Shown: positions 4,221 through 54,826 of the stretch, piece by piece | Layout of the letters: each line of letters opens with the position of its first letter | Numbering within the stretch: position 1 is the stretch's first letter | Origin: Onchidella celtica | Lineage: Eukaryota > Mollusca > Gastropoda > Systellommatophora > Onchidiidae | Direction of reading: 5' to 3' | Length of the DNA stretch: 64,000 nucleotides | NCBI GenBank assembly: GCA_963931925.1 | Contig: OZ007569.1 | Location: 74,534,400 to 74,598,399 of the forward strand | Notes under the pieces: generated by a model | Told to the model about the DNA's origin: nothing | The model's input: the letters and a program-made list of their open reading frames with translations, nothing else | Databases searched by the model: none | Made by a program: the position numbers and the translations under genes

Positions 4221-5887
4221 AGTGAATTTAGACCTTCTTCCCTTGAAGAAGTCTTTGACATTGTCAAAGTTGCTCACGAGACTATTGGACATGGGGGCGG
4301 TAAGAAAACAATTGCAGAAGTGAAAAAAAGTATTGTAACATCACCCAAGAAGCATGTTATCTGTACATATCGTTTTGTGAACACTGCCATCAAAAGAAGG
4401 CAAGAAAGTTGCCAAAAGGTCTGGTAGTTAAACCCGTGCGCAGTCATCACATTTTTTCCAGGTGTCAAATTGATCTCATAAATTTTCAAACTTTGCCTGA
4501 CGGTGATTTCAAATATATCATGACTTATGTGAACCATTTCGGCAAATTTTGCATATTGCGTCCACTTGCGTCAAAAAGAGCAGAGGAGGTGGCAGCCAAT
4601 CTTCTTGATATATTTCTGACATTCGGGGCACCTGCCATTTTGCAATCAGACAACGGGCGAGAATTTGTAAATGCCGTTATTGCGGAGCTATCAACCCTCT
4701 GGCCAGAAATGAAATTGGTGACTGGCCGCCCACGGCATCCCCAGAGCCAAGGTGCGGTTGAGCGCCTGAATGGAGTTATTCAGGATAAACTAGTGACTTG
4801 GATGAGAGAAAACAATAGTAAAAAATGGTCAGTGGGTCTCAAATTTGTGCAATGGCAAATAAACATTAGCCAACACGAAACTACCGGCTTTAGTCCATTT
4901 AAAATTACGTTTGGCAACGATCCGCAAGTTGGACTGGGGTCGTCTCTCCTGCCAGGTGAAGCTTTGCGTGAAATATCGACCGAAGAAGATATTGAAGCAT
5001 TTTTAGAAACCAGAGGGGGAGATGTAAGAGAGACAGAGGAAGATGACGACACAGAAACAGCAGCAATGGGAGAGATAATGACAGAAACAGAAGCAGTCAC
5101 CGAGATGGTTGCTGTGACTGAAAATGCAGTGAGAGTGGAAGAAGCAGATACGATGACTAGTGCAATTGTGACAGAAAGTGACGCAGACACAGATGTATTG
5201 GCACACGAAGACGTAGAGATGGCAGAGGAAGATGACGACACAGAAACAGCAGCAATGGGAGAGATAATGTCAGAAACAGAAGCAGTCACCGAGATGGTTG
5301 CTGTGACTGAAGAGGTGGCATCACCCACAGAGGACAATGAAGTGGAAGATGATGAAGCCACTACAATGGCAGGAACATCAACATCAGCGGCAGTGGGAGC
5401 ATCAGACATAGACTATTTCCGGCAAATAAGAAACATCGCCAATGCAGGGCAATCGAATACAGCAGACAGAATGGCACGTCGCGGGAAACAACTGCTTAGG
5501 CCATTACTTGTTGGACAATGTGCAACGCTTCGAGTTCCCGACGTGGATCGAGGCCCAGCAGATCCAAAAAATATTCTAGTGGTCGTCATCAAAGAACAGG
5601 ATGGTCTGTACACAGTTGGTTGCCGCGAGGGAATACTGCATTCCAAATTTACATCAGCTGATCTGGATCGTATAGACCACGCTTTAATGACAGTCAATGA
5701 TGTTCCTGAGGTTTATTTATCATTGAGATCAGCAATAGCAAAGGCAACTGGTGGTCAAGGCTTTCAGAAATGCCAATGCAAAACAGACTGTACGTCAGGA
5801 AGGTGTACCTGCTTAAAAAAACGAATGATGTGCAACTCGCAGAGCATGCAAAAACGTCTGAAAACTATGTATTATTATGTATTATAA
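4221..5887 (+). pseudogene. Integrase-type transposase (KRBA2/SCAND3-like), frameshifted
   Basis: The product is a DDE integrase-type transposase for cut-and-paste movement of the surrounding element. Part of an N-terminal zinc-binding HH-CC module is seen at 4221-4408: AHETIGHGG in one frame, then FCEHCHQKKARK in the frame of the main body. The two are separated by a frameshift in the A-run near 4323-4329. The main frame continues to a TAA at 5885-5887. The rve core has QIDLINF (first Asp), LQSDNGREF (second Asp) and QSQGAVERLNG (Glu). An acidic Glu/Thr-rich spacer (about 5020-5350) holds a 189-bp duplication. The C-terminal part (GQCATLRVPDVDRG...GILHSKF) and a Cys tail (CQCKTDCTSGRCTC) match KRBA2-like proteins, but the tail is cut short after MMCNS. 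All catalytic residues remain, so decay is recent. Confidence 0.75.
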
Positions 5888-19838: not shown

Positions 19839-21407
19839 TACGGGTGTGCGAGTAACGATTCCGGAATTGAGTACTCGATTCTTAACTGCGGCGATTCCGG
19901 ACTCGAGTCTCCAATCAAATACTCGATTCTGGACTCGATTCCAACAACCCGATTCCGGACTCGACTCCTCGGTAAAGGACTCGAGTCCCATACACAAATT
20001 GGGCAAAAAATTATACTGAAAGCACGTCAAATCACCACACCACCACCACAACCACACGTGCTGGGTGAGTACAGCAAGTGGAAACCGACGGCAACAGAAC
20101 TGAAAGTGAAACTACTCTTAGAATTCCAAGAATTTACGGTGGTTTCGATTTCAAAAGAAACATTCAATACTAGCCTCAGCTCACACAAGTTGTTATAGTT
20201 TACAACAACAGCAACAACATCGCCACCATCATCACCACAACCAACCAATCAACAACAACAAACAACAAACAAATAAAAACAACAATAACAAACAAAGAAA
20301 CTAACAAACAAACAAACAACGACAATCAAAAGCATAATTATGTCCAAAATGGTGCATCTGGAATCAATTCCACTCGAGTCCCCTCGGAAATTCATGAACA
20401 CCAAAAACAGCCCTCGAGCTCAGCTCGGAAAGGGATGACATCTTTTTTTGGTTCACGTTTCAACACTTGACCAAATATGGTTGCAACATTCTGCAATTTT
20501 CCAGGAAAAGGGTGCAGCCTGCACGAGCATATCAACTAACCGAATAAGGAAAAGAAAATTCTGTTTTTCGTGGAAATTTGAAATGCTTGTCTACAAATAT
20601 GGGCACAATCTTGGATCCGATGGATCATGGGCAATCGAGACTGTATGTATAAATAACAGACAAAAGCCCAAAAATTATCATTCATCCACCAATCTTCGAT
20701 TGCATAACTTCAGACTTCAGACTCCACATCGATCAAGCATGAGTTCCAGACAGAAGAGCAACGTGTGGACATATTTCGAAAAATGTCCTGCTGCCAAGAA
20801 AGTGAAATGCAAACTATGCAAGGCTGAACTTGCAGATTGCAATAACACTTCAAATATGCTGAAACACGTCAAAGCACGACATACCCAAGAAGCCATGTCG
20901 ATGACAGCTGATGAGAGCCAAGAAGAGTCCACCACAACGAAAAGGCAGAAAATGGAGCAGCAGACCCTACACCAAGCGACCCAGCATTTGTTCAAATACA
21001 AGAAAGATGCACCTAGACAAAAACAACTGACAGAAAAGCTGATGCGCATGATTGTAAAGGACATGCAGCCCTTTTCTATGGTGGAAGATGAAGGCTTCAA
21101 GGATTTGCTGCATGCCTTGGACCCGAAATTTGACATCCCCTGTCGCACGACTATGTCTAGACATTACCTAAAAGAGTTGTATGCGAAGGAAGCTGAAGCC
21201 CTGAAAACAGACTTAGCAAAGGCCGAGTACATCGCTCTCACAACAGATGGGTGGACGTCCCGCCAGACTGTTTCATATTTAACAGTAACGTGCCACTACA
21301 TTACAGGTAAATATACCTCATTTCACTATAATATCTTTTCGTCTTGTTTCTGTGTGTGGCTGTGTCTGTTTATGTCTGTCTGTCTGTCTCTTTTCTCTCT
21401 TTCTGTC

Positions 21408-21456
<49 letters not shown>

Positions 21457-23279
21457 GCTCATATTTATACATTTTTTTAATGTTCTTTTTAGATGAATGG
21501 AAACTGAAATCTGCAACCCTGGACACCGTTCACATGAAACGAGAACACACAGCAGAGAACATTGCAGATGAAATCAAAGCCATATGTGTTTCCTGGGGCA
21601 TCGAAAGCAAGATTGTGTCAGTTGTCACGGATGGAGCCTCTAACATGATAGCAGCAATCAGAACATTGGGTCAACACCAGATGCCCTGCTTTGCACACAT
21701 GTTAAACCTTGTGGTGAAAGGAGCTTTGGACGAATCTGAACTGGCCCCTCTTCGTAGAAAAGTCCGGGAAATAGTCACCTATTTCCACCACAGCGTCAAA
21801 GCGTCCGACTGTCTTCGAGAAATACAAAGTCAATCTGGTCAACCGAACAAAAAACTCATAGCTGAAGTTGAAACACGATGGAATTCAACTTATGACATGC
21901 TTGAACGATATCACGAGCAGCACCAGGCTGTCACAAAAGCTTTGTGCTATGTGGGCAGACCAAGCCTTTGTATTGAAGACAGAGAAGTCCAGCAAATGAA
22001 GTCATCCCTAGAAATCCTGCGGCCATTTGAAGATGTCACGAGAGAGTTAATTTCGGCCGAAAAATACGACTCCCTGTCGAAAGTTATAACCCTCTGCCAG
22101 GTCCTACGCAGAAAAATGACTGGACATGCTGCAACATCGCCACTAGCACAGAAACTTCTTGACAATCTGGACAGAAGATTTCGAGATGCCGAAACCCGAT
22201 TTCACCTGGCAGCATCTGCTCTTCTCGACCCACGATTCAAGAAACTTGCATTTTCGTCTCCAGTGACTCTTGAAGCAACAAGCACAAGACTTGTGGCAGA
22301 AATGACTTCCATCATGCCTGACCCAGACCCAGAACAAGGCCCATCAACAGATGCACAAGATGTTACAGCAACTGACAACTTATGGTCGCACTTTGACGAT
22401 CTTGTTGCATCCACAACAACCAAGAGAACACAAACCGTCAACACCGAAATTGAAAAACGAAGATACTTCGAAGATGAAAACATCCCCAGAAACAGCGATC
22501 CATTGGAATACTGGAGAAAATCCGAAAACATATTCCCCAGACTTTCGAAACTTGCCAAGAAATATATGTGCATTCCAGCATCCTCCGTCCCATCACAGAG
22601 ATTGTTTTCTGCTGCCGGAGAACTGGTATCCAGCAGGAGATCAAGATTGACAGCAGAAAATGTAAATATGTTGTTGTTTCTAAACAGTAATATGTTGTAA
22701 AAAATAAAAGAAAAAAAAAAGAAAGAAAAAAAAAAAAAAACCCAACAACTTTCAATTGCTGACTATTAAGAACCTATGATGATCCCAAGCAAACTTCATG
22801 TATGAAGTGCATTCTCTGAGGTTCACAGTTATAAATTTTAGGTATGCATTTTATTTTCAGTGTACCACCACCACCAACACCAACAACAACAACAGCAGCA
22901 ACAGCAACAACAACAACAAATACAACAACAGCAGCAGTGGTGAAACAGCAGTGGCAACAACAACAACAACAACAACAGCATTAGCAGCAATAACAACAAG
23001 GTTAAAACAGTAATTGCAGCAGCAGTGCATTATTATCACCACTACCACCACCACTACCACCACCACCAACAACAGTACTGAAGTTAAAACAATAGCAACA
23101 CCAACATTTGCCATGCAAAAAAAATTGAATAACAAGTTCTCGTTAGTATAATTACTCGAGTAATTACTCGATTCCTGGCACCTTGGGAATCGAGTACTTA
23201 CTCGAGTAATTACTCGACTCCTTTTGTTATTACTCGATTCCGGTATCGAGTCCGAAATTTTTGGATTCGCACGCCCTTA
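19839..23279 (+). mobile_element. Complete hAT transposon
   Basis: The 3441-bp element begins TACGGGTGTGCGA and ends with the inverse of TAAGGGCGTGCGA (13-bp TIRs, two mismatches), flanked by the perfect 8-bp duplication CTCGGATT. Its subterminal zones (19850-19990 and 23145-23255) carry over ten variants of ACTCGAGT/ACTCGATTCC in both directions, probable transposase binding sites. The interior carries an uninterrupted transposase gene, with (CAA)n and (CCA)n simple repeats on both sides of it. Intact structure and perfect duplications suggest a recent insertion that may still be active. Confidence 0.9.
20739..22700 (+). CDS. hAT transposase with BED zinc finger (ZBED-like)
   Basis: This is the cut-and-paste transposase of the enclosing element. 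I chose ATG 20739 (MSSRQKSNVWTYFEK) because the BED finger starts just after; the frame is open further upstream but that part looks noncoding. Exons are 20739-21306 and 21493-22700, giving 591 aa. The 186-nt intron (ACAG|GTAAAT...TTTTTAG|ATGAATGG) contains a (TC)n run and is itself open, so an unspliced mRNA would also be translatable. BED finger at about residues 7-52 (CKLC...HVKARH). Catalytic motifs: TDGWTS (Asp170) and TDGASNM (Asp236), then CFAHMLNL. The C-terminal hAT dimerisation domain reads PSQRLFSAAGELVSSRRSRL. No stop or frameshift. An AATAAA follows the stop within a few bases. Confidence 0.88.
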
Positions 23280-32900: not shown

Positions 32901-35900
32901 AGTTTCAGTTCTGGGTGATTATTATGGACCTGCTTCATTTTGCCTGTTCCTTTAGCTTTATTTTATTTTTGTTTGTTTGTTTGTTTTTAGATAAGTTTTA
33001 CTGCTCTCCCTTTGCGCATTGACATCCTGCGCATCCCGTCAGCATCCGTCAAATGGCAATGATTTGCGTACGGGTTAGTTTGTTTGTTAGTGAACACATC
33101 GCAGGAAGTGATAACTTCATGTCTAGGCGGAAGTGGGCTATTATTAGAAACATACATCAATATCTTATTGATCGTAAATTTCGGATCAAACGCTCTTGTG
33201 AATTTAGTCTTTAATTATAACCGCATTTACCGATTAACTCAGAAATAACAAATGGTTTTGTTTGTGTATAGCGATAGGAACAATGTTCGCTATCCCATAA
33301 TTCTTTGTGCCAAATTTCAGGTCGGTGCGTTGTGTAGTTTTCGACTCCATAGGACTATTAGGGGTTTTGTTGTAGCTTTATTATATAGACTAGCTGAGTT
33401 GCCCGGCCCTGCCCGGGATAAATCGATTTATTAGTTTCAGTTCTGGGTGATTATTATGGACCTGCTTCATTTTGCCCGTTCCTTTAGCTTTATTTTTATT
33501 TTTGTTTGTTTGTTTTTTGATACGTTTTACTGCTCTCCCTTTGCGCGTTGACATCCTGCGCATCCCGTCAGCATCCGTCAAATGGCAATGATTTGCGCAC
33601 GGGTTAGTTTGTTTGTTAGTGAACACATCGCAGGAAGTGATAACGTCATGTGTAGGCGGAAGTGGGCTATTATTAGAAACATACATCACTATCTTATTGA
33701 TCGTAAATTTCGGATCAAACGCTCTCGTGAATTTAGTCTTTAATTATAATCGCATTTACCGAGTAACTCAGAAATAACAAACGGTTTTGTTTGTGTATAG
33801 CGATACGAACAATGTTCGCTATCCCATGATTCTTTGTGCCAAATTTCAGGTCGGTGCGTTGTGTAGTTTCCGAGTCCATAGGACTATTAGGGGTTTTGTT
33901 GTAGCTTTATTATATAGATATATATATATATATCTATTTCTCATATATATATAATATATATATGTTGTTTTATTAATTGTAAATTATACTTATTATTACA
34001 ATTAGTTGGTTAAAAACAAAGTTGGACCAATTCAGGAAGCAAGTAAATTAGGATTCAATTACAATGAAAGTATGAAAAACAAATATTCATGTTTCAAGTC
34101 ACAGTTCATTTTCGTTATAGATCTAGATTCTATTCTCATTTGTCATTCACTGCTTGTTTTTAGTGCGCTTATATGTCTTTGTCATTGAGGAGGTTTTGTC
34201 TGCTAGATGAGGGCTTGAGTCTCATTTTCTGGTATACGGGGGGCAAACCAAGAGTTCTCCTCTTGAATATGAGTGAATAATTGAAATTTTCACACTCACC
34301 TTAGTCTTTCTCTATATGGTTGCCCAGAACAGCTACACACTTCTGCCACAGATTGATGACCTTGAGAAGACCGCGTGCCAGAAAACCATTCTTGTACCGC
34401 TACTTTCACTGCATCATCACTTTTCAGGTGTTTTTTCAGTTTTGGGAATAAATAAAAGTCTGATGGAGCCAGATCTGGTGAATAAGGTGGATGTAGTAAA
34501 ATTTCAAAGCCTCAATCTCGCGCTGTTTCTGCTGCTTTCCTTGAAGTGTGTGCAGACGCATTGTCGTGAAGCAGTAACGCACCTTTCCTTAGCTTTTCTC
34601 TGCGTTTTTCTTCAATTGATTGCCTTAAGTTTTTCAGTTGCTTGGAATAATGGTCACCAGTGATCATATGCCCATTTTCAAGATAGTATGTTATTGTTAT
34701 CCCATCATGGTCCCAAAAAACGGATAACATTGCTTTTCCACTTGAGGGCTGCACTTTTGATTTCTTTGGTGTTGGTGATGAAGGTGATTTCCACTGTACT
34801 GAAGCAGACTTTGTCTCTGAGTTAAAGTGCTGAACCCAAGTTTCATCCATGGTTGTGAGTCTTCCAGACAACTCAGTTTGGTTTTGCTCACACAAATGAA
34901 GCAACTTTTGGCAACATTCCACTCTTGGCACTTTCTGGGGAGGAGTCAGAAGACAAGGAGTACATCTTGCAGACATCTTTGTCATATTCAAGTGAGTATT
35001 CAGGATTCTTTCAGTTGACCCATCACTGAGCCCAGTTTCCTTACTCAGCTGCTGAGTTGTCACACGTCTGTCAGAAACAACAAACTTTTTGATTTTCAGA
35101 ACATTCTTCTTTGTCACTGCTGTCCCTGGCCGTCCATCACAGCTGTCATCATCAGTGGACATACTCCACATTTGAATTTCTTACACTAGTATTTTATCAT
35201 ATCATATGACGAGAATAATTTCCATGAACTGCATGCATCTCAATGAGAATTCCGTGCAGCTGCTCACCTCGTAAAAATGAAAACTTTGTAAATGCCCTGA
35301 GCTCAATTTTCTCCATTTTGATGCTAAATTAGCAGAAGACCAACACCTCCTTTCATTCGGAGCATTCCATCCCCAAGACTGGTGAATGGAAATTTTCGTA
35401 AATTTGCCTGCACTGTAGGAAGAAGTTTGTATGCATCCTAGTATGTTTCAAGACTTTATCTGTATTCATTCATATTCAGGTGAAAACTTTTTGTTTGCCC
35501 CTCATAGGTGAAATAATGTGTTGTCTGAATTTGTTTATATCGTATACATCAATATATTATAGAAAAGTATGGACAAAACTTTAATTGCATTCTTCTCAAA
35601 GTGTGGTTGTTCACAAGGAATTTATAATCTCCTTTTCCAAATTTTTGGAGCTATTACTGTGACATTTTGCATGAAAGCAGTTCAAAACATTTTAATGAGA
35701 ACGATTATTTGATATTTTATAAAGTTTTAAAAAAAAATTGAGATTTGGGGGAGACAGTTGGGGAAAATTTGGGATTTACTTACATGATAATTTAAAAAAA
35801 TTGTGAAGGAAAAAAAATTATTCACTGTTTAAAATTTCTCCTTGAAGGTTTTTAAATATAGTGTTAAAAAGTGTGTGCGCAAAGTTTCAAGCAGTGTGGT

Positions 35901-38900: not shown

Positions 38901-40450
38901 TGGTCAATGAAATGCCATTATATTCTGGAAGTTAAAAGTTTGATAGTGGAAAGGGACAGCGGAAAGTCAGCCAGAGTCTGGTTGCATTGTATTAAGGTTG
39001 AAGACATTACACTATTATGACTGATATAAATGAGATTGTTTCTTCGGTACTAATTTCGGTTGTTTGGTTTTTCAAAATTGAGTTTGGTGTCCTGTAAAGA
39101 AATGGAAGGAAATTCTAAAGAGTATTGGAAAATAAAAGAAGACATATATTTGAGATGAATGTTCACAAGCACAGGAGTGAAAATTTCCTCAAACTCAAAA
39201 AAATATCAAATCCTTTGATTTGGCATGTCAGGTCATAGGTTTCTTTGATTGTGACATATAAAATCCTGTATAAAATGTTCTTCTATGAACAAATACAAAT
39301 ATTTAAGAAAAAAAAATCATCAAAATTTAGCCTTGTTCATAAAAACCATTTCTTTTCCTGTCAAGAGTTTGAGTTTGGGTTTTGCTGCGCATCGGCACGA
39401 TGATGGTCACATTGCGCCTTTCATGATCTGTCTGGGTACACTATTAATGTTTGGTATTCAGATGTCTGGGTAGACTATTCATGTTTGGTATTCAGATGTC
39501 TGGGTACACTATTCATGTTTGGTATTCAGATGTCTTGGTACACTATTCATGTTTGGTATTCAGATGTCTGGGTACACTATTCATGTTTGGTATTCAGATG
39601 TCTGGGTACACTATTCATGTTTGGTATTCAGATGTCTTGGTACACTTTTCATGTTTGGTATTCAGATGTTTGGGTACACTATTCATGTTTGGTATTCAGA
39701 TGTCTGGGTACACTATTCATGTTTGGTATTCAGATGTCTTGGTACACTATTCATGTTTGGTATTCAGATATCTGGGTACACTATTCATGTTTGGTATTCA
39801 GATGTCTTGGTACACTATTCATGTTTGGTATTCAGATGTCTTGGTACACTATTCATGTTTGGTATTCAGATGTCTGGGTACACTATTCATGTTTGGTATT
39901 CAGAGCTTCTAGCAGGAGTATTCATGTTCTAGATGGAGGATATACATGACCAAATTCATAATAAGAAACAGGGTGAAACTTAATATTGTCTTTGTACAAA
40001 GAGCATCCTTCATCATTTACTTTTCATTTGCAATGACTTTGTTGTGTTTCATTTTCAGCCCCTTCAAGCAGTTCCAGCAGCATTGTGAACTCGAGAACAT
40101 TCATAAATCAGGATGTCAAAGTGATCAAGTTACCACGCAGTGTTCTCAAGCTTGTCAGTCAACACCTTGAAGTTGATATCATGACAGGAACTTGGAAGGA
40201 TCTTGTGGAGCTGCATGGCTGGAACTATGAAAGAACTTACCTGTTTGACAACCGTAATCATCGCAATGGATTGTTCTGTGCTCTGTTGCATGAACCAGAA
40301 TTTCAGGGATACACTCTGGGGCAGTTACGAGCAGATTTAGTAGATATGCCCAGACTGGACTTGCTTGAAGACCTGGATGAAGAAATTCAGATGCACAATT
40401 CACGAGTTTCTGCAAGTGTCAGTGGAAATATGAGAAATTTGGCTCTCTAG
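27719..40450 (+). CDS. Death-domain-like protein, six exons, complete
   Basis: Exons 27719-27797, 28172-28255, 28486-28762, 30588-30910, 37638-37784 and 40059-40450 join in frame at GT/AG sites (1302 nt, 433 aa). ATG 27719 (MTDDAAPDSYEYDG) is taken as start; the frame is closed by TGA at 27662. Residues 1-310 are polar and low-complexity, rich in Ser, Gln, Pro and Asn, probably disordered, ending in a six-Ser run. Residues about 325-410 look like a six-helix death domain of MyD88/IRAK/Tube type: VIKLPRSVLKLVSQHLEV, then TWKDLVELHGWNYERTYLFD, then YTLGQLRADLV and RLDLLEDLDEE. Such domains bind other death domains in innate immune or apoptotic signalling. No kinase, TIR or ankyrin part is present, so it may be an adaptor. 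The fold is inferred by pattern only; the exon model is stronger than the function. Confidence 0.65.
29955..30036 (-). repeat. 3' tail of a CR1/L2-like LINE
   Basis: (TAA)n followed by GCATTTATATAGCGCCTTTC and GGCGCTTAACA is the inverse of a LINE 3' end. The same pattern ends the coding LINE at 52697-53615, which supports the assignment. It lies in intron 3 of the death-domain gene. Confidence 0.6.
30171..30521 (+). mobile_element. MITE with 32-bp TIRs
   Basis: ATCGTCATGGTGCTAACCTT, then TTGGCCTAAGTC, is repeated inverted at 30490-30521 with one mismatch. Flanks read ATA on both sides, a possible 3-bp duplication. The inside is noncoding, with a further small palindrome on the CCTAAGTC motif. 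The right end lies 66 bp upstream of exon 4 of the death-domain gene. Confidence 0.7.
30917..30986 (-). repeat. 3' tail of a CR1/L2-like LINE
   Basis: (ATA)n then AGCATTTATATAGCGCATAT and GTGCGCTTTACAG, the same family end as at 29955-30036. It begins a few bases after the donor of exon 4 of the death-domain gene. Confidence 0.55.
31347..32258. mobile_element. Possible TTAA-flanked non-autonomous element
   Basis: TTAAGGGGGGGGGG at the left faces CCCCCCCTCCTTAA at the right, about 0.9 kb apart. TTAA on both sides recalls piggyBac-type insertion. The TIR beyond the G-run is weak and no transposase is present, so this may be coincidence of two homopolymer runs. Confidence 0.3.
32329..33920 (+). 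repeat. Triplicated dispersed repeat (about 532-bp unit)
   Basis: Three head-to-tail copies start near 32329, 32857 and 33389. Each runs GTTGCCCGGCCCTGCCCGGG, then GGACCTGCTTCATTTTGCC, (GTTT)n, CATCCCGTCAGCATCC, then GGGGTTTTGTTGTAGC and TTTATTATATAGA. The left motif also appears singly at about 16029 and 19699, so the unit is a dispersed element family of unknown class, here tandemly arrayed within intron 4 of the death-domain gene. No coding capacity. Confidence 0.8.
34237..35504 (-). mobile_element. Mariner-type transposon (defective)
   Basis: TA dinucleotides at 34235-34236 and 35505-35506 flank a 1268-bp element. Imperfect TIRs of about 39 bp read GGGGCAAAC(C/A)AA(G/A)AG and continue to TGAATATGA(G/A)TGAATA. 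Length, TA target and transposase type fit mariner. It lies in intron 4 of the death-domain gene, antisense to it. Confidence 0.75.
34300..35320 (-). pseudogene. Mariner transposase, interrupted
   Basis: On the minus strand the beginning (MEKIELRAFTKF) near 35318 is separated from the main frame by a stop and a frameshift near 35180-35215. The main frame (35171-34512) carries the second helix-turn-helix (SGR-type motif, here CDGRPGTAVT; DRRVTTQQLSKETGLSDGS), LNMTKMSARC, the first catalytic Asp in TMDETWVQHF and the second in LLHDNASAHTS. A TGA at 34512-34514 interrupts it. In the same frame GFEILLHPPYSPDLAPSDFY follows with the third Asp, 34 residues after the second, counting the stop. That is the DD34D triad of mariner. 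Confidence 0.75.
36414..36508. mobile_element. Small palindromic MITE (GGGGACC family), copy 1
   Basis: TTGTTAGGGAACC at one end and GGTCCCTTAACAA at the other. The core GAACAGTGAACACAGTTCAG recurs in the elements at 42480-42587 (inverted) and 42614-42720. GGG ends with TTA flanks recall PIF/Harbinger-type MITEs (3-bp TWA target). Confidence 0.6.
38163..38275 (-). pseudogene. LINE ORF2 C-terminal fragment with 3' end
   Basis: This minus-strand sequence matches 55745-55860. It encodes (with changes) the stretch around KLYGALPELQKTVDFLKRT that ends Jockey/I-type LINE ORF2 proteins, followed by a GAAAGAAGAAGAAG tail. It lies in intron 5 of the death-domain gene. Confidence 0.55.
39429..39904 (+). 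repeat. 34-bp minisatellite, 14 copies
   Basis: The unit TGTCTGGGTACACTATTCAT, then GTTTGGTATTCAGA, is repeated 14 times with no spacers and few substitutions (mostly TGGG/TTGG alternation). As 34 is not a multiple of three and the unit has no stop, all three plus frames are open. It lies in intron 5 of the death-domain gene. Confidence 0.95.
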
Positions 40451-42960: not shown

Positions 42961-43660
42961 ACAAATGTTGATTTCTGTTACTGAAAGCTCTTGAAAATGG
43001 AACCATGACAAAAAGAACAACACTTTTTACCTGAATTCACCCTACTTACCACACCAGACAGCTTCAGTACAGTGTATTAAAGTGGCATGAAAGAGTGTGG
43101 AGAGACCATTGGAAATGTGTTGTCAGAGCAGTTTGCAGTTCTAACGTAACATTTACACTATGCAAATGTACTGAGATGATTGTTTGTCTTTGGAATGATA
43201 CTGTAAATTTTCACTACATTTTAAGATTTGTATAACAGCAGCCAAATTAGTAAATTGTGGATTTTGTAAATTAAATCTTTTATATTTGATCTGTTGATGA
43301 TATATTTTTCATGTGATAATCTTAAGGCTGGATTTTAGCGTTTCTCACAATGTTAGGGTGAGTGCAGAGGTTATTTAAAAATATGGTAGGCAGGCCTTTA
43401 TGACATTTTTATACATGTACTCCCATAATTTGAAATGGTGTGAGCTCCTTTTTGGAATATTTAGGAACACAAAAATGCATGGGAAATGTGCCTACTAGTC
43501 CCAGATGGGCATTCACTCTGGCATAAACATCATTTTATGAGCTGAAGCAAAAGACTTGAGATGTGTGTGGTAATTTATTGAGAGAGAGCTCTGAGATAGA
43601 TCTTATTTGGTGCACATTGAATTGTCAAAGTAATACATATATATATATGTGAGAAACTCT
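42961..43660. other. Intergenic stretch, nothing recognised
   Basis: About 0.7 kb of AT-rich DNA, ending in a short (AT)n run beside the next transposon. Confidence 0.35.
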
Positions 43661-46600
43661 TAGACTCAAGGCCACTGGGACCCCCCATCCCCCCCCCCCC
43701 CCGGGGATTTTATACCACTATGTTTTTCTTATAGTTGAGACCATAGGTTTATAAATTCTGCTTGTTATCAAAATTTAAAGTGTAGCCTTACATGAGTTAC
43801 GGCCCTTTAAACATAAGCAGTTGCGCCCTTTGGAAAAATAAGGGGTAGGGTTGATAAATCACAATCAAAATGAATGTATACAATCTAAATATGCACAAGT
43901 TTGGTATCAAATCAAAGCTACTATGTACATCTACTTGATAAAACATATATAGACACTAATTTGACAATATTATGATGGTAGTGCAGGCCAAAAACGTACA
44001 TTTTAACCAAAAAAAATAATTTAAAAATCCAAACTTAACCCTCTTGCTACGGACCACGCATTTTTGCTTTCCTATACCCATGATATTAAAGTTAATTAGA
44101 GCCAGGATTAGAAATACATGTTAAAATCAGAAGAACTTCCACCAGGAAGAGGCAGCTCCAATGCAGCACCATTTTAGTATAACAGTATCACTTCAGTTCA
44201 TTAAGATGTTAATCAATCACAAAGAAACACTACTCAAGATATCTGCGAAAATATGCAATTGATCAGTGACTATGACCACACAAGAAGTGAACAGTTGTAA
44301 AACTAGTACCTCCTTTTGCAGGTGCAATACATATCTAGAAATCATTATCACTTTGAACTTCCTGCTCATCTTCGGAAGACATGATTTCATCAGACGAACC
44401 ATCGGACAGATCACACTCATTTTCACTTTCATCATCATTGCTGCCTTCATTCTGAGTGCAGTTGTCTTCTGTAATTATATCCAGTAGTTCTTTGGGGAGA
44501 AAGTCATCCTCACACCACTGGATGACAAGAGATCCTGAACTGTCAATCACCCATCTATTGTCTTCAGCTTTGGGCAAAGTTGGGTGAGATTTGGATGCTT
44601 GCCTCCAGATCAAGGTTTCGAAGTTTGCTCTCTGAATGTGCAATAGAAGGACCTTTTTGCATGGTGGCATCTGGCTGATCTAAACCGCTGTCTTACAGTA
44701 TCATATCTCACTTTGTCAACTTTGGGTATGTGATGGCTTGCCATACAGCTTGCATACGAAAGCCTCCAAGTCTGCAGTGTCACTGTCTGTAATACTTTCT
44801 GAGGTGCCGAACCTGACAAACAGATCTACCAGCTTTGAATCTTTCTGAAGCATGGTAAGGGCCTTAATCTTCCCTTTGCCTGCAAAACAGCTTGTGGTAT
44901 CACATCCTGTGAAAGCATGCAAGCCTAAAATGGCATCGCATAGTGGTTTTCCAATCTTCTCACTCATGTGTGTTATATTGATATGTCTTCTCTTGTTCCC
45001 TGTACCTGTGTCAAATATCAAAGGTTTATCTATGAGTTCGTTGAAGCAGAGCAAAAGCAGGAACACATCAGTGTCGGGTGACCTCACAACAAGTGCATCA
45101 CAGTTGGCTTGTCGTGAAGCATATAGGCAGTGGAGGATGATCCGTGTGTCTGCTTCATCTTGTGAGGAGAACAGTTCTTGGACAGGTCTAGAGTCTGTTG
45201 TAGCACCATCACTACTGCTCAGTGACACACAACGTTCTTGGCTGACAAAAATGATTTCCCGATCATGCAGTTTTCCAGCGTAATCATCTGACTCCCATTC
45301 GGTGAGAAGAAGGTTGATGAGGGACGTTTTGTTATCATCATTGGACAGGAACGTTTTCCAGTCACGTGGTAGTTTGGTAGCTGATCCACTTACAAGGTAA
45401 GCATTGGCCTCTGAAGATCCTCTTCTAAGTCGTTCTGCATTTTTGATTGAGTCCTGAACATAGGTGTCTGTTACAAAGTGAACAATCTCCGAGAGAGGCA
45501 GTGCTGACAATACCCGCTTTGCTAGATCACCAAATGTGTTTGGTAAGTCTGTGAGAGACTGCAGAAGGGCATTGCCATCAACTATGTGAACTCTATTTTT
45601 CATCTGTGGTTCACCTTGTACCTGAGGGGCGTATTTGTCTTCAAGCTTGTGAAGGAGTGTTGACTTGTTTGTTTTCAGTGGCAAACCATCTGATGTGGCC
45701 ATTGCCCATGGCACGGGGCTCAGTGGGTAGGTCAAAACCTTCTCGAGGTCAATGTTGTGGACTTGTGACAGGATGAGCAGCTGACCAAACAGGTTTCTTT
45801 GGGTCTTGATATTGATTTCCTTTTTTCCTGATGGTTTCACAGACACAACTTTGGAGAGAGATGTAAATGTTTTCAGTTTATTTCTTTTCAGGGGTTCATG
45901 AAATGGCAATATTTGAGTCTTCAGTCTGCTGTCAACAAATGATTCAAAGGATGTTCTACCATTTTCTTCAGCCTTGAGCAGATCACTGGCAACATCTTCA
46001 GAGACTTTCAGACCAGATGAGAGACAAACAAGATCTTCTTGCTGGACTTCAAAAGGATTTATAAATGCAGTAAATGCCTTCATGGTCTCTTGCACTCCGT
46101 TTTCACTCTGCAGTTTTCGTGCTGGAGTGAGTTCCTTGTGGCTGTCATTACTTGAATCACCAATATCAGCCATATCATGGGTGGCGGAAACATAGCTTGC
46201 ACGGTTGTGTCTGGTCACCGACCATCTGTAATAAGCTGGCAGGCTTCTGCTGAAGCCAACAATCCCACCTCTTGTTTTGGCATGCCTGTTGATAGTTTGC
46301 TCAATTGTAAGATCAACTGCTGTTCGTGATGCTGGAACATCTGATCTGCACACACTGAAACCATTGTTGCGCAACAAGGATTCAGCACCAGGATGGGAGT
46401 CTGACAGATTGAGCAGGGAGATGAAATATACACTCAGATATTTGGCGTAGTTGTGATGGTCCATACTGAATAGGAGTGGGCAGAGTTGTTGTAGGCAACT
46501 GATGTGAAGATCCAAGTCATTCAATTTTGTCGCTCTCAGAAAACGCAGCAGCAACCAGACCCTATCCATATACTGGACCCAGAATTGTGATGTCTTCCCA

Positions 46601-49600
46601 TGTCGGCCGGTCCTCACTTCTTCTTTGAAGTACTCATACTGAGCAAACAGTTGATCAAATGCTTGAGATGCTAGGTTTTTCTCTGCTGCATTGCTGCTTA
46701 AATTTGTCACAAGCTCTTTGGCTTCTACCACCAGTTTCTCACATAGACCTACTGATCCTGTATTTTGCTCAAAGGCGGTGAAGAGCAATCTTTCAAGGGC
46801 TTCCAGCATGATGGTATGCACTCTAAGTGCTCTGTTGTAATGTTTACCATTCATTATCTTGTCAAGAGAACCACTAGCACATACGCCTGCTTCGGTAATG
46901 ATGTTTTCAAATCCTGATCCTTTCATGAGTTTTCCAAGAGCACCGAGGTAGGACAGTATAGTATGGAACACACCCAAGTGAATGACTACGTTCTTGTAAC
47001 GTTCTGCATCATGCCAGACAAGAGCATATGTTTTCTTTGCCACAGCAAGATCAAATGTGACAAATGTGTATTCCTGCTCTACTTCATCTGTAGCTTCCTG
47101 TGATATCTGAATGGTCGAATTTTCGTTGATGGAAGCATTGATGGGTGCCATGTAATCGATGACTGACTTGGTGTTTGTTTTGGTTTCTTGTGTCGCTGAT
47201 AGCCAACCTTTCCAGCTTGGAAAGTTGCACTTGCTTTCATTTAACTTCAGTCGACAAAACATCCACAAAAAATCAGACTTCAAACGCTTGTATCAAATGT
47301 TGGATGTTCGTATTTTGTTTTTGACACTGTCAGATCTGGCTCTACCTTGAGGCCCACAAAACACGGTTGTAACTCAACAGGAGTGTAAACAGCAGATCGT
47401 CTCTTTGACCTCTTCCCTTGACTTTGCATTGGTTCAGATCCACTGAGCATCATGTTTTCTGTTGGATTATCCTCTACCTCTGTCACTTTGTCATCTACTT
47501 CTCTTGACTCATCTTCAATCTCTGTTGATTTGTCTTTTACCTCTGTTGACCCATCTTCGATCGTTGTCGATTTGGCTATCACCTGTGTTGACTCATCTTC
47601 AACCCCTGATGATGCTACCTGTGTTGACTCATCTTCAACCCCTGATGATGCTACCTGTGTTGACTCATCTTCAACCTCTGCTGAATCTATCTCTGTTAAC
47701 TCATCTTGAGCACCCGCACACATATCTTTTACCACTGTTGACTTTTTCTTCACCTCTTGAATTACTATACCGTGGGTTGAATGGGTGGTTCCTGCGCCAC
47801 TGGGGGTTTCTTCATTCATATCAAAGTTATCCCAGCAGAATTGTGTGACAATGTTTTCGTCCTTTACCACGCCATCTGGAATGTTTGTTGGACTTTGAAC
47901 TACAGCATCACACATGGCAGTCTCTAATTCTAGTAAGGTAGAATGGGAGACACAGTGGCCGAAGCGATTCAGAATGTTGATGAGCTGTGCACTTCCAGTG
48001 ATATGCCTTACAGTCATCCCCAACAAAAGTTGCTTTGGCATCTTCCATTGTCCACATGTGACATTGTAGCATATGTCCTGACCGATGGACTGGTCAAGTC
48101 TGTCACATCGAATGCTACATGTACTCGCCGAGGCCCTCTTTGATAAAAGGCTTCTGAGAAACTTGGTTAGCATAGCGGGGGCCTGAATCTGGTCTGAGAG
48201 AAGATAGTCAGCACTTGGTGGCCAGGGCATTTCTGGGGCATTTTTGAAGCTGTCGAAAATCAATCTCCGTAAAACCAATGCTGCTTCCTCCAGTCTCCTT
48301 TCATCAGATGATGCACACTCAAATGCAGCTTCAACAGCACAGCCTTTTGGAACTTCGGCAGAATATACTAGCTCACTTCGATAGTTAGGCTGCCAAAACT
48401 GAAGTTTACTTCCAAAAGCTTTGTGAAGTTTTTCCTTTAGTTTGTAAGTCTTGTAATTTGGATTATAGACTTCAGGGTGATGGGACTGCATGTAGAGACA
48501 ATACTTTTCTGTCAACATACTCATTCTCTCGACTTGACAGTTTTCAATGATATACTTTTTGACATATCCTTTTATATGGGTGAAGGCATCTGCATGTGCT
48601 TTTTCAGATTTGAGTAGAGCTGGATCAGTTGCTGCTTGGTGGCGGTCGTCTTTCCTAGTGTAGTCACGACAACACGAGTCATGATAATGAGCTTCTTTTG
48701 CAACTAAACAGTAATTGCCAGTGATTCCCTTTAATCTGCTATCATCCTTTCTTTCAGTGGCTTCTTTTATAGAATTCTTGGCTGTTTCTGTTATACATTT
48801 CACCAGGTTCTCTCTCTTTCTTTTTACAAACTTTGATCGCTTGTCACATATGATACACAAGTCCTTTGAAAATAATGTCCCAGTGGTTTCTATTGCACGC
48901 TTTTTTCGTTGGGAGCAAGTTGGTTCCTGGTCATCAGCTGCTCTTTTCTTCAGAAATCTGGTGTAAGTAAATGTCTGATAGCAAGGTCAATGATAGCCAT
49001 GTTTGGTCTTGTCAAGCGAATCAGGGATTTTTTCACAAATGTCCATGAGTTTGTTTTTTGGATCCTCGCTGGTCATCCTTAGTCTTTTCATCTCGCACAC
49101 TCTCTCCCATCCATAGTCAGTGAATGGTTTAACATCTCCATAATCATGCAGGTTGTCATTGTGAATTATACACTTTGTACCTCCGCCAGAATGTCTCAAA
49201 CGTTTGTGTTTTTTCAATGGCACAGGCTTTTCCTCAGCCATAACGGATTCAAATGGAACTGTCTTTGCTTCTTAGAACTGGAATATGATTATCTGAAAAT
49301 ATAAAGGTAAAGAATAGGTAAATCTCAAATGGTGAACAGTTTTTAATTTCTTCACATTGCATTGCTTAAAATGAAACAATAGCAAAATTCCCTGCCACAA
49401 CTGTTTGTAACATTCGATATCGGATTGCGGTATACAAATGATGCATCAGCAAAGACAAATCGCTGAATCCAAAGGGAATAGTACGACCTCAGTTTGAATT
49501 ATATGGGATATAAACTTTCTTGTGGTCTTTCATTTATTTAGTTTTATTTTATTTCAGACTGTGTCAGCACTTTAACAGATGTTTTAGTGCATTTTGGTGA

Positions 49601-49967
49601 AACAGATGACAATATTCACAGTCAGATGAATGTTTCGAGTAAATTCACTTTATAAACTGATGTGTGCTATATATTCCAATTAAAATATAACACCAAATTA
49701 ATTGTAGGTCAAAATATATAATAGATATTCACTTCTAGTAAAGTTTAAATGGAAGGTGTGTACATGGGCACATTTTTTTTAAAAAAGTACATTTTCACAA
49801 AAAAATGCACCCATTGACCTTTCAAGGGGCAATAACTCATACAAAAGACACTTTAAATTTTGATAACAACCGGCGTTGCACTTGGTATATGTCCTAGTTT
49901 CAGAAAATGTATGTCTCATAAAATCCCCAAGGGGGGGTGAGGGTGTCGCCCACTGGCCCTGGGTCTA
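43661..49967 (-). mobile_element. Large DNA transposon with FEN1-like nuclease gene (Academ-like)
   Basis: The ends TAGACTCAAGGCCACTGGG and, inverted, TAGACCCAGGGCCAGTGGG begin imperfect TIRs of about 165 bp. Shared blocks are a C-run, GGGGATTTTAT, TTGTTATCAAAATTTAAAGT and ATGAGTTA. TCT stands on both sides (43658-43660 and 49968-49970), a 3-bp target duplication. Length 6307 bp. One large minus-strand gene, now broken, fills most of the inside. A 3-4-bp target and an XPG-type nuclease are features reported for the Academ superfamily, but I could not compare directly. Confidence 0.7.
44335..49241 (-). pseudogene. Zinc-finger plus FEN1/XPG-like nuclease protein of the transposon
   Basis: Starting at ATG 49239-49241 (MAEEKPVPLKKHKRLRHS), about 1635 codons run to 44335 with four breaks: TGA at 48987-48989, a frameshift near 47280, and frameshifts near 44735 and 44665. 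The N-terminal third has Cys/His clusters (KHGYH...CYQTFT; LCIICDKRSKF; AKEAHYHDSCCRDYTR) and an acidic repeat (about 47460-47700). The middle is the unnamed core of a widespread invertebrate and fish family (VVIHLGVFHTILSYLGALGK, HYNRALRVHTIMLEALERL). The C-terminal third looks like a FEN1/XPG nuclease: VHIVDGNALLQSL, SSQDEADTRIILH, VVRSPDTDVFLLLL and GLHAFTGCDTTSCFAGKGK (compare the GCD-G-G turn of FEN1). An acidic tail follows. Databases tend to label relatives CXC domain-containing. The nuclease reading is my inference. Confidence 0.6.
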
Positions 49968-51131
49968 TCTTCTTAGAATGAATACATTGACATGTATGGT
50001 TCAGAAACTCACTTTGCATGATTTACAAGTTGAGAGGCTGTGACACTTTGGATTATACAATGCATTATACATGTATGTCATTGCAGTATATGGTCATGTG
50101 ATGATATACATTGATTATTTTTATTTCTTGATATTATATCTCATAGACATGTCAATGGTGTTGGGTGCAAACCAGCCAAGTCAAAGATAAGCAAATTTTA
50201 CAGGAGGAACAAAACGTTGCGGATAACACAAAAGGGAAATGTACTTAACTGGTTTGATCACATGTCTATTTTGAATGTTTCTATTGAATTATGGTAAGAG
50301 CTATTTTTACAGATGATGTGGGGTTCCAATCTCCATAAATTGGTACTATAAAAAGAAATATGAAATTTTCGGACTTAGCTGGTTTGCGCCCGACACTATC
50401 GATGTATATTTCTTAGTTTGTATGTTTGCCAAACCTCTATCATTATCAGGCTGAAATATAGTTGGGGGGGATTTGACACTAGGATGGTCATTGAAGGGCT
50501 GGATCAGCCTGTTAGCGGTCACTTTATCTGTTTGTTTGTTCATTTCTGTGTTTATTTTTAGGACAGTAGACTATGTGACCTTATGGTAACAGATGAGTAT
50601 TTTACTGTCTGTCATAAGAGTTCATTCAGTTTGGTGCACTTTCATAACCAAGAAAGGAGTGCACGCCACAGTGAGGCGCACATGCTATCAACAGGCTTGT
50701 ATTTGTCTTGGACTTTTTAACTTGGTGCAATTCTTTTGCCTAGAAAGGATTGCATAGTGCACTAGCGTACTTGGGATCTGTAACAAGTGTACTTACAGAG
50801 GGAGACTTTCCACATTGTTTCCCTTTCATGAAAACATGATCCTTTCATACTTTCATAGCTTTGGTGCTCACATTCTGCTGTGAATACTTTTTGTTGTTGT
50901 TGTTTTCACATTATCTAAACACATTTTCCAATAATAAACTCTTATTTTCCTCTTCAGTGTACACATGTATTTGGTACTTCAGCCAGGGGGAAAAAATGAT
51001 TCACTGCTGAACATGTACACAGAATTTTCTTCCGGTGATTCCAGTCTTTCTCTCCTCCACACAAGTTGTCTTTCAGTATTATCTTTATAGTGGTTTGTCC
51101 CAAAAAAAAAACCCCAAAAAAAACCACATTA
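49968..51131. other. Intergenic stretch, nothing recognised
   Basis: Unique AT-rich sequence. A short stretch (about 50487-50520, GGTCATTGAAGGGCTGGATC then AGCCTGTTAGCGG) faintly resembles the tail of the tRNA-Thr SINE at 57027-57335. Confidence 0.35.
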
Positions 51132-52696: not shown

Positions 52697-53615
52697 AATA
52701 CTAATAATAATAATAATAATATATTGCATTTATATAGCGCCCAACCCCGTCGATGACAAGCTCTGGGCGCTTTAACAAACTCTTACACACACACACACAC
52801 ACGCATACACAAAAGAAATTCAAAAATATTTACTATTGTTGCTGCCGAAAAACACCTAGCCTAGTTTGTCTGAAAGAAATGGGTCTTCAGATGGCGTTTG
52901 AAAGAACCAATGTCATTAATTTCCCTGGTTGTCTTTGGAAGAGTGTTCCAGATGGTAGGGCCAAGAAATGAAAAGGACTTTTCTCCTACAGTGGACAGAT
53001 TCATTTTAGGTACTTTCAATTTTGTAGTGTCAGATGATGATCTTAGTTGACGAGATGGAACATAGTAATCAGTTAAATCAACTAGATACGATGGAGCAGT
53101 ATTATTGACACATTTGTGACAAATGGATGACAATTTGTACATTATTCTTTTCTCGACTGGCAGCCAGTGCAAACTCTGCAGAAGTGGCAGTGCTGAATCT
53201 CTTTTCTTTTTCTTCAAAACAAGTCTCGCTGCATTGTTTTGAGCAATTTGGAGTTTTCTAATATTTTTTTGTGAAATTCCAGCCAAAAGGGAGTTGCAAT
53301 AGTCAAGCTTTGAAAGTACAAAAGAATTTACTAAAACAGCCGCAGTTTCAGTTGAAATAAGATGTCTGATTTTACCAATTTTCCAGATTTCCATGTATAG
53401 AATACGAATGAGGTGACTAACCTGAGATGACATAGAAAGATTTGAATCAATGTAAACCCCTAGGTTTTTTACTTTTTTTGAAATTTCTATTGAATTAGTG
53501 CCAATTATCGTCTCAGTTCTGTCCACTTCTTGCAGAACCCGCTCACGGCCTAATAAAATAACCTCAGTTTTATCCTCATTTAGTGCCAGTTTGTTTACTT
53601 CATTTATGTTATACA
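52697..53615 (-). mobile_element. 5'-truncated CR1/L2-like LINE
   Basis: The minus-strand element ends in GGGCGCTATATAAATGCAAT followed by (ATT)n, its 3' tail, and is cut at the 5' side near 53615. It keeps the C-terminal part of the reverse-transcriptase ORF. A (TG)n run interrupts the 3' UTR. The tail matches the relics at 29955-30036 and 30917-30986. Confidence 0.8.
52861..53609 (-). CDS. LINE reverse transcriptase, C-terminal thumb and connection part
   Basis: The frame is open from the truncated 5' end (NEVNKLALNEDKTEVILLG) through VKNLGVYIDSNLSMSSQVSH, SKLDYCNSLLAGIS, LQIAQNNAARLVL and LHWLPVEKRIMYKL to the stop after FKRHLKTHFFQTN. These are the conserved blocks after the polymerase active site in CR1/L2/Crack-type LINEs. 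The YxDD catalytic motif and endonuclease lie in the missing part, so the copy is dead, yet the remaining frame of about 250 codons has no stop, which suggests recent insertion. Confidence 0.8.
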
Positions 53616-54826
53616 GTTATGTATCCATTAGCACAGGCTGACGATGTCCTGACTTTTTCCTTCTGGGGCATGCTATTGTAAAAGATCATTATTTTAAAAG
53701 TTCTGCATGTGGAAAAGAGGAGGGGGGCGGGGTGTCCGAGAAGCTTTGTACATTATAACTGTATATGAATTTTATTTCTTAAATTAAAATCTTACTGAAT
53801 GGTATTATTTACATAATACGTCAACTAAGGCCTATTTTGTATTTGTAATTGGGTGGTTTCGGTCATCTGGCAGGCTACCAAGCCAGTTCACTATCAGCAT
53901 AGATTTATTGATCTTTTGCTATAGTGCTCTGTATTATTTGTCACTTTGACCTGACACTACTAACAGTAACAGCCCCTTGCCGGGTCCAGTCTGAGTCAGT
54001 TCTATTGAGGAAAAATTCTGAGGATGGCTGTGCATGAGTCAGTTCAATTTATTCAATCTCATGGAATCATTGGAACTGATCTAGGCCAGTCTCATTTTGT
54101 GGCAACCATTCCAGAGGATTGTCAGGCGGCCAATAGATAGGTTCATGTAACATTTTATGGTGGCGGCCAATAGCCGCATAGTCAGTGAGACTAGTGATGT
54201 ATCGGCTCGTAATTTTTATAGTCGAATAATATTTTACTTGGACATCTCCTCTGATCAAGTATTCGAGTGACTTTTGATACATAATAAATGATAAACACAA
54301 TAATGAAAAGAAATTTTGCGACGCGCCTATCTCAGAAAACATGACAAAATGAAATAAACGAACTTGTGGTGATCCGGCACACCAGAAAGAAAGCAAACTA
54401 TGTTAAGCTGTAGTCGATGGCTTTGAAATTCATACAGCTTGTGAACTGCTCATAGCTAGTTTTGAGTTAATATTCAGTAATTGATCGGATTTTGGGGGGG
54501 GGGGGGGTCCTCTTTTTTCTGCAGGTCCAGTTAATAACATAAATAATCTTTCTTTTTTAAGTGTACACGGAAAAAGTAGTTGGGCTCTGTCGACTTTCGA
54601 CTTGTTCTGGTATTCGACTAGATCTAATCGAAAAATTATATTCGACTACCGTCATCCCTGCGATTCGCTACAATGGCTGCGCCCTACGTTACATCACAAG
54701 ACTTCTCGTTTCATTTCCTTTGCCACCTGTTGCCGGCCTTTTAGGGTACGTGTCCGTCAACGGGGGTGTCAACATCGGTGCATACTGTCATGCAGTGCAG
54801 GACTGAAAGCAAAAGTGAAATGATTT
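53616..54826. other. Intergenic stretch, nothing recognised
   Basis: Unique sequence with a G-run at about 54494-54508. Open frames at 54067-54396 (minus) and 54561-54823 (plus) show no known features. Confidence 0.35.

Follow-up and report, generated by a model that had tools for sequence, protein, structure and literature searches.

The nuclease of the AcademX transposons is of the XPG type, a Cys8 zinc finger is found in Academ proteins, and FEN-like nucleases (FEN1, EXO1, XPG) act on 5' flaps and junctions. In the published description of the Academ superfamily (PMC10045372), AcademX is a lineage (Kojima 2020) that encodes a nuclease and makes a 3- or 4-bp target-site duplication (TSD), while AcademH, of the same superfamily, encodes a helicase and makes a 9- or 10-bp TSD; for Academ itself Kapitonov and Jurka 2010 is cited (PMC4455052). 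Academ elements are described as frequent in bivalves, with 100 curated families of mean length 5565 bp (PMC10294476). A DDE transposase joined with a nuclease has been described also for the lineages KolobokE, KolobokD and KolobokP, but their accessory nucleases (lambda-exonuclease-like, DEDDh or His-Me finger) are not FEN-like (PMC9587614). The link between nuclease and transposon is not new, because AcademX is described by it. A literature search for Academ and XPG as whole words occurring together found no paper among those searched.

The window (the whole stretch of DNA that was analysed, 64,000 nucleotides, C3:74534400-74598399 of the 1.14-Gb genome of Onchidella celtica) contains a 6307-bp segment at 43661..49967 with a minus-strand gene, which is most likely an AcademX-type DNA transposon that moves by cut and paste, encoding a DDE-like core and a C-terminal FEN1/XPG-like PIN nuclease. 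The low-coordinate end at 43661 reads TAGACTCAAGGCCACTGGG, the high-coordinate end at 49967 reads TAGACCCAGGGCCAGTGGG in reverse complement, and both termini carry TAGACYCARGGCCASTGGG in inverted orientation. The paired ends claimed in the earlier note are thus present in the sequence, and the trinucleotide TCT, claimed for both sides, lies directly outside both ends (43658..43660 and 49968..49970, read in the sequence and rechecked jointly with the other insertions). The terminal inverted repeats (TIRs) are indeed imperfect, as a gapped alignment of the ends revealed, but shorter than the approximately 165 bp proposed: local alignment and the inverted repeat pairs I1 and I2 gave 151 aligned nt at the 3' end of the gene (43661..43811, plus strand) and 147 nt at its 5' end (49821..49967, minus strand), including 22 nt found to be perfectly complementary in the inverted repeat search (43762-43783 and 49848-49869).

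The rest of the window also carries traces of mobile DNA: a hAT transposase with a BED finger (20439-22700, plus strand), a fragment of a mariner-type Transposase_1 (34512-35180, minus strand) and an integrase-core (rve) protein with a Cys-rich tail (4304-5887, plus strand). A 251-aa frame at 52861-53616 (minus strand), which resembles the end of a non-LTR reverse transcriptase, has no Pfam match at E 0.001. A tandem array of a 34-bp unit (39429-39904, 14 copies, 96% matches) makes a repetitive 181-aa frame at 39404-39949.

A second full-length copy, L039 (C12:46800500-46808500), matches the window element over its whole length with 96.4% identity (6376 columns, of which 74 are mismatches and 156 gap positions), and its two ends fall at the same bases. 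Its flanks differ from those in the window, with TTC directly outside on both sides, and it is nested inside a related element. When L039 and one TTC are removed, the joined flanks give a gap-free 102-aa match across the junction, with 57% identity to the window's own 568-aa frame; the joined flanks with one TTC thus represent the empty site, and the duplication made by this insertion is 3 bp long. A partial third copy, L064, retains about 500 bp including the 5' (high-coordinate) end of the element, and is 93.8% identical to it over 500 columns. Hence the ends recur elsewhere in the genome (both of them in L039, one in L064), TIRs are common to copies at different sites, and the 3-bp duplication assumed by the earlier note recurs at L039, together with its empty site. 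The element is a mobile cut-and-paste DNA transposon with a 3-bp duplication, a different one at each of the two sites (TCT in the window, TTC at L039), and with a nested second copy. The 14-mer TAGACYCARGGCCA was considered as a measure of copy number and rejected: it has 20 matches in the genome versus 3 for the reversed control, and among eight that were fetched two are the window element's own ends, while the other six, judged by eye, do not continue into its terminal sequence. Two of the 12 unfetched matches are ends of L039 and L064; the end pattern is not specific.

Ends were found in four lineages besides that of the window element, and all insertions with two ends were rechecked together. 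In all five lineages the usual end starts with TAG (single deviating ends occur in L040, L041 and L082), and 10 of the 12 two-ended insertions are flanked by a direct repeat of fixed length, nine times 3 bp (one of these, at C8:31.98 Mb, only if one extra terminal base is allowed) and once 4 bp. The second close family, with the ends TAGTGCATGGGCCAGTGGG and TAGTACTTAGGCCACTGGG, has the TSDs TGT (C8:17.90 Mb), TGA (the above-mentioned C8:31.98 Mb) and TTA, the last one seen in copies on C7, C11, C14 and C15 and counted once; the flanks of its copy at C17:2.88 Mb show no matching TSD. The third family, with the ends TAGACSGGAGGCCAGC and TAGAGCTTGGGCCAATGGG, was examined at both ends in two copies, which have the TSDs TAT and AAA. 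Two deep lineages, whose nuclease domain is only 27-30% identical to that of the window element, start with TAGTGGGCTTG and have the TSDs TTT, TAT and the 4-bp AGTA; the deep-lineage copy at C17:4.32 Mb has no TSD match. For a further copy on C2 no 5' end could be located, and of L045 just one end was seen. A search with a 19-letter end pattern gave 19 matches, versus 1 for the reversed control, and reached mainly two families.

The four second-family copies that share TTA (L062, L068, L073, L075 and their partners, at C7:0.12 Mb, C11:0.04 Mb, C14:52.46 Mb and C15:1.71 Mb) have both flanks identical over the 20 bases compared, and probably go back to a single ancestral insertion that was multiplied when a larger segment was duplicated; two of the four lie near the start of a contig. 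The C11 copy may itself have received an insertion, since its two ends are 22.6 kb apart. Two short elements on C8 with second-family ends, L010 and L011 (2.7 and 3.2 kb), occupy different sites and are 97-98% identical, L011 being about 0.5 kb longer; in both, the nuclease half is open and the part with the D, D and E residues is gone. Members of the third family (the L016-L034 group, L079 and L080) are about 4.4 kb long, and 11 of the 15 copies compared have the same 3' end and are about 97-99% identical. In the two copies with the 5' end found, the element begins about 0.4 kb upstream of the MAEETPSG motif and thus lacks the N-terminal zinc region. A C-run followed by a G-run lies near the ends of the window element (43680-43712 and 49918-49945) and at the same place in two other families; the 5' end of L080 has the C-run without the G-run, and the pattern was not seen near the ends of the deep lineages. 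The idea that these blocks form special hairpins was not supported, as the folding of six ends was not significant (z-scores from +0.56 to -1.63).

The coding sequence of the window element is not the one huge minus-strand gene of the earlier note, but is split into two long overlapping frames and shorter ones, all on the minus strand: a 94-aa N-terminal frame (48987..49271, stop to stop, with no Pfam match), a 568-aa frame with the zinc motif, the N-terminal region and the first conserved Asp motif (47280..48986), an 858-aa frame with the remaining DDE-like core and the nuclease domain (44716..47292), and a 114-aa C-terminal frame with an acidic tail (44335..44679). It is thus interrupted at about 47280-47292 and again before the C-terminal frame. 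The window copy is the broken one at the former position, since in L039 a single 990-aa frame spans the 568/858 junction, which begins ahead of the DN.D.N motif and covers the nuclease domain up to residue 183 of 325. The remainder of the domain lies in a 309-aa frame of L039, which also includes the counterpart of the 114-aa C-terminal frame, so neither of the two copies has the whole protein in one frame. The window element is a recently moved and now damaged DNA transposon and, being broken, it would depend for any movement on protein from an intact relative. For the nuclease domain, five between-family pairs exhibit dN of 0.31-0.49 with dS of 2.5 or saturated, which indicates purifying selection on this domain during the divergence of the families. 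In eight close pairs, and in the pair of the window element and L039 over the 858-aa frame, both dN and dS are small and similar, and the ratio, where computable, ranges from 0.48 to 3.3 on few changes. This is the pattern usually seen for a transposon gene, which is under selection as long as the element is active and can decay freely once it has inserted.

The C-terminal nuclease domain (325 aa, 44719..45693, minus strand) was delineated from matches in the same genome, alignment, profile and fold. It has at least 125 matches in the genome, a lower bound for the repeats in which some matches are pieces of one copy (L039 accounts for two). The alignment comprises 22 of these matches, of full or nearly full length and with no stop, some near-duplicates having been left out; the motifs DG, TD.Y..S.K, EEADTR, D.D and GCD..S.F.GKGK are invariant or nearly so, with single rows lacking one or another motif residue. 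The conserved acids and the helix-turn are found in the order typical of FEN nucleases, with an uncertain register at one block. The 22-row profile, compared with 177,635 PDB sequences, gave four matches at E<=10, all of them to EXO1 (E 0.49-0.89) and in the helix-turn region; the 858-aa frame alone gave no match in the PDB sequence search. Comparison with six FEN1/EXO1 sequences by hhalign (score 33.3, P 0.0012, probability 19.7%; at most 21.5 for 30 column shuffles) aligned four of the five motif blocks, all in matching order; the register at EEADT is uncertain, and the first Asp falls outside the local alignment.

The fold was modeled by AlphaFold from four sequences (the window element, L054 and two pieces of L055), and the best of five models was of modest quality (pLDDT 66.9, pTM 0.69); a single-sequence model (pLDDT 35) was not used. 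With this model, Foldseek identified Rat1 (E 0.002, probability 0.99), T5 FEN (0.97) and human XPG (0.95) as the first three PDB rows and FEN1 at ranks 6, 7 and 11; a probability of at least 0.7 was reached in nine rows among the best 50 of 754 at E<=10, eight of them FEN/XPG/Rat1 and the ninth 2qip. The TM-scores were about 0.4 and the identity 10-13% in these rows, no match reached E 0.001, and unrelated low-probability chains were mixed in from rank 4. When the 22 rows were scanned with Pfam, no XPG family was matched, XRN_N was matched once at 0.023 and two further matches were weak and unrelated; none of the four matches of Pfam XPG_I across the genome falls at the loci of the 125 domain matches. 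The domain shares with FEN1, EXO1, XPG and XRN the order of the conserved acids, the helical turn and the fold matches, and differs from them in the very low identity, in being unseen by Pfam XPG_I and in being part of a transposon protein. Each of these lines is weak by itself, but all of them (motif order, EXO1 profile matches, hhalign and Foldseek) agree, and together they provide good evidence of a diverged PIN domain of the FEN/XPG type at the C-terminus, as the earlier note had guessed from the motifs.

Beyond this genome, scans of viral contigs revealed no relative, and a scan of bacterial and archaeal genomes revealed two loci, L054 and L055, with relatives of the nuclease domain on contigs labeled as Planctomycetota MAG and Bathymodiolus gill symbiont, which probably stem from animal DNA that entered bacterial assemblies. 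In L055 the nuclease domain is followed by a Cys-rich stretch.

Or perhaps the C-terminal domain is a non-catalytic remnant of the PIN type, kept for binding of DNA or of another protein? The first conserved Asp is missing from L039 (GGNALL in place of DGNALL), and some rows of the alignment lack one acid (e.g. EEAVT in L014). However, each of the acids is kept in all or at least 90% of the 22 rows, which reach down to 27% identity, the divergence between families shows purifying selection, and the losses concern single young copies, as expected if these are dead, so we regard this explanation as unlikely. The preferred reading is that the domain would be an active nuclease, whose activity and substrate are predicted here from its relationship to the FEN family.

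The region upstream of the nuclease carries a DDE-like core of the DUF6589 type, which had no place in the earlier note. DUF6589 matches the window element at 46288..46833 (minus strand) with 19.5 bits, below the cut-off of 27, and was matched in four of the six proteins scanned, the others scoring 21.3 (L043), 18.2 (L039) and 29.1 bits (L042, above the cut-off); the deep relatives L044 and L045 have no Pfam match to it. A literature search for DUF6589 found no paper among those searched. The candidate catalytic residues, all on the minus strand, are the first Asp in DNFDMN (47814..47831; DNIDHN in L044 and L045), the second Asp in FDLAVAKK (47050..47052) and the Glu in IEQTIN...GGI.G (46300..46302). 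When the window element, L044 and L045 are aligned, they have in common the D of DN.D.N, the D of FDLAVAKK / VDQPL..L.K and the E of IEQTIN / HEQ or HEH followed by GG.IG, which suggests that these conserved positions constitute a DDE triad. A C2HC-like zinc motif, CIIC...HYHDSC (48672..48857, minus strand), has counterparts in L044 and L045. The core would be responsible for catalysis and the zinc motif for DNA binding.

In the nuclease and in the TSD (3 bp in nine and 4 bp in one of 12 related insertions) the window element fits AcademX, because both match the published description of that lineage (PMC10045372), and its length of 6307 bp is near the mean of the bivalve Academ families (PMC10294476). 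The Academ guess of the earlier note thus fits that description: the nuclease is borne out by several modest lines and is unmatched by Pfam XPG_I, and membership in Academ is predicted from this description. The Cys8 zinc finger of Academ proteins was not seen between the core and the nuclease in the window, where there is no Cys cluster, and the 858-aa frame has no Cys pair spaced by 1-3 residues. AcademH shares the superfamily but differs in its helicase and its 9- or 10-bp TSD as described (PMC10045372), neither of which characterizes the window element: no helicase was matched by Pfam in the window frames, and L042 has only a weak DEAD_assoc match below the cut-off.

It is unlikely that the element represents a separate unnamed superfamily, which would owe the FEN-like domain and the short TSD that it has in common with AcademX to convergence or an exchange of domains. 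Such a reading would be in line with the comparison to AcademX being one of description, with DUF6589 having no transposase name in Pfam and with the missing Cys cluster, but the combination of a nuclease with a 3- or 4-bp TSD is that published for AcademX (PMC10045372), and the frequency of Academ in bivalves and the similar length of the elements (PMC10294476) argue against it as well. That this is a family of host genes whose inverted repeats arose by chance is hardly credible in spite of the 1392-aa open frame in one relative, as it is already contradicted by the empty site and disagrees also with two full copies that have exact common ends and different TSDs, and with the TSD in 10 of the 12 related insertions.

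For the transposon reading, the following mechanism can be proposed. The protein would bind the TAG...CTA ends, perhaps through its N-terminal zinc motif, and the DDE-like core would make a staggered cut and carry out strand transfer, with a stagger of 3 bp, or of 4 bp as in one of the related insertions. The FEN1/XPG-like nuclease could then act on a flap or a junction of the intermediate formed during transposition, e.g. the 5' end of the non-transferred strand; its simplest use would be to trim that strand, either at excision or after joining. We consider it possible, but somewhat doubtful, that this flap or junction endonuclease within the transposase polypeptide performs a required step of transposition, in which case these elements would not depend on host FEN1 for that step.

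Since the element fits AcademX, an already described group, it adds a good example to a known kind of transposon and does not represent a new one. Our analysis suggests that many of the at least 125 domain matches, to which the XPG_I profile is blind, are transposon proteins or their fragments, the ends having been checked in the copies described here. A single genome here offers a well-delimited family of AcademX type, whose ends and target duplications are known exactly and which comes with a clean empty site as well as several deep relatives; this makes the role of a FEN1-like nuclease inside a DDE transposase protein testable.
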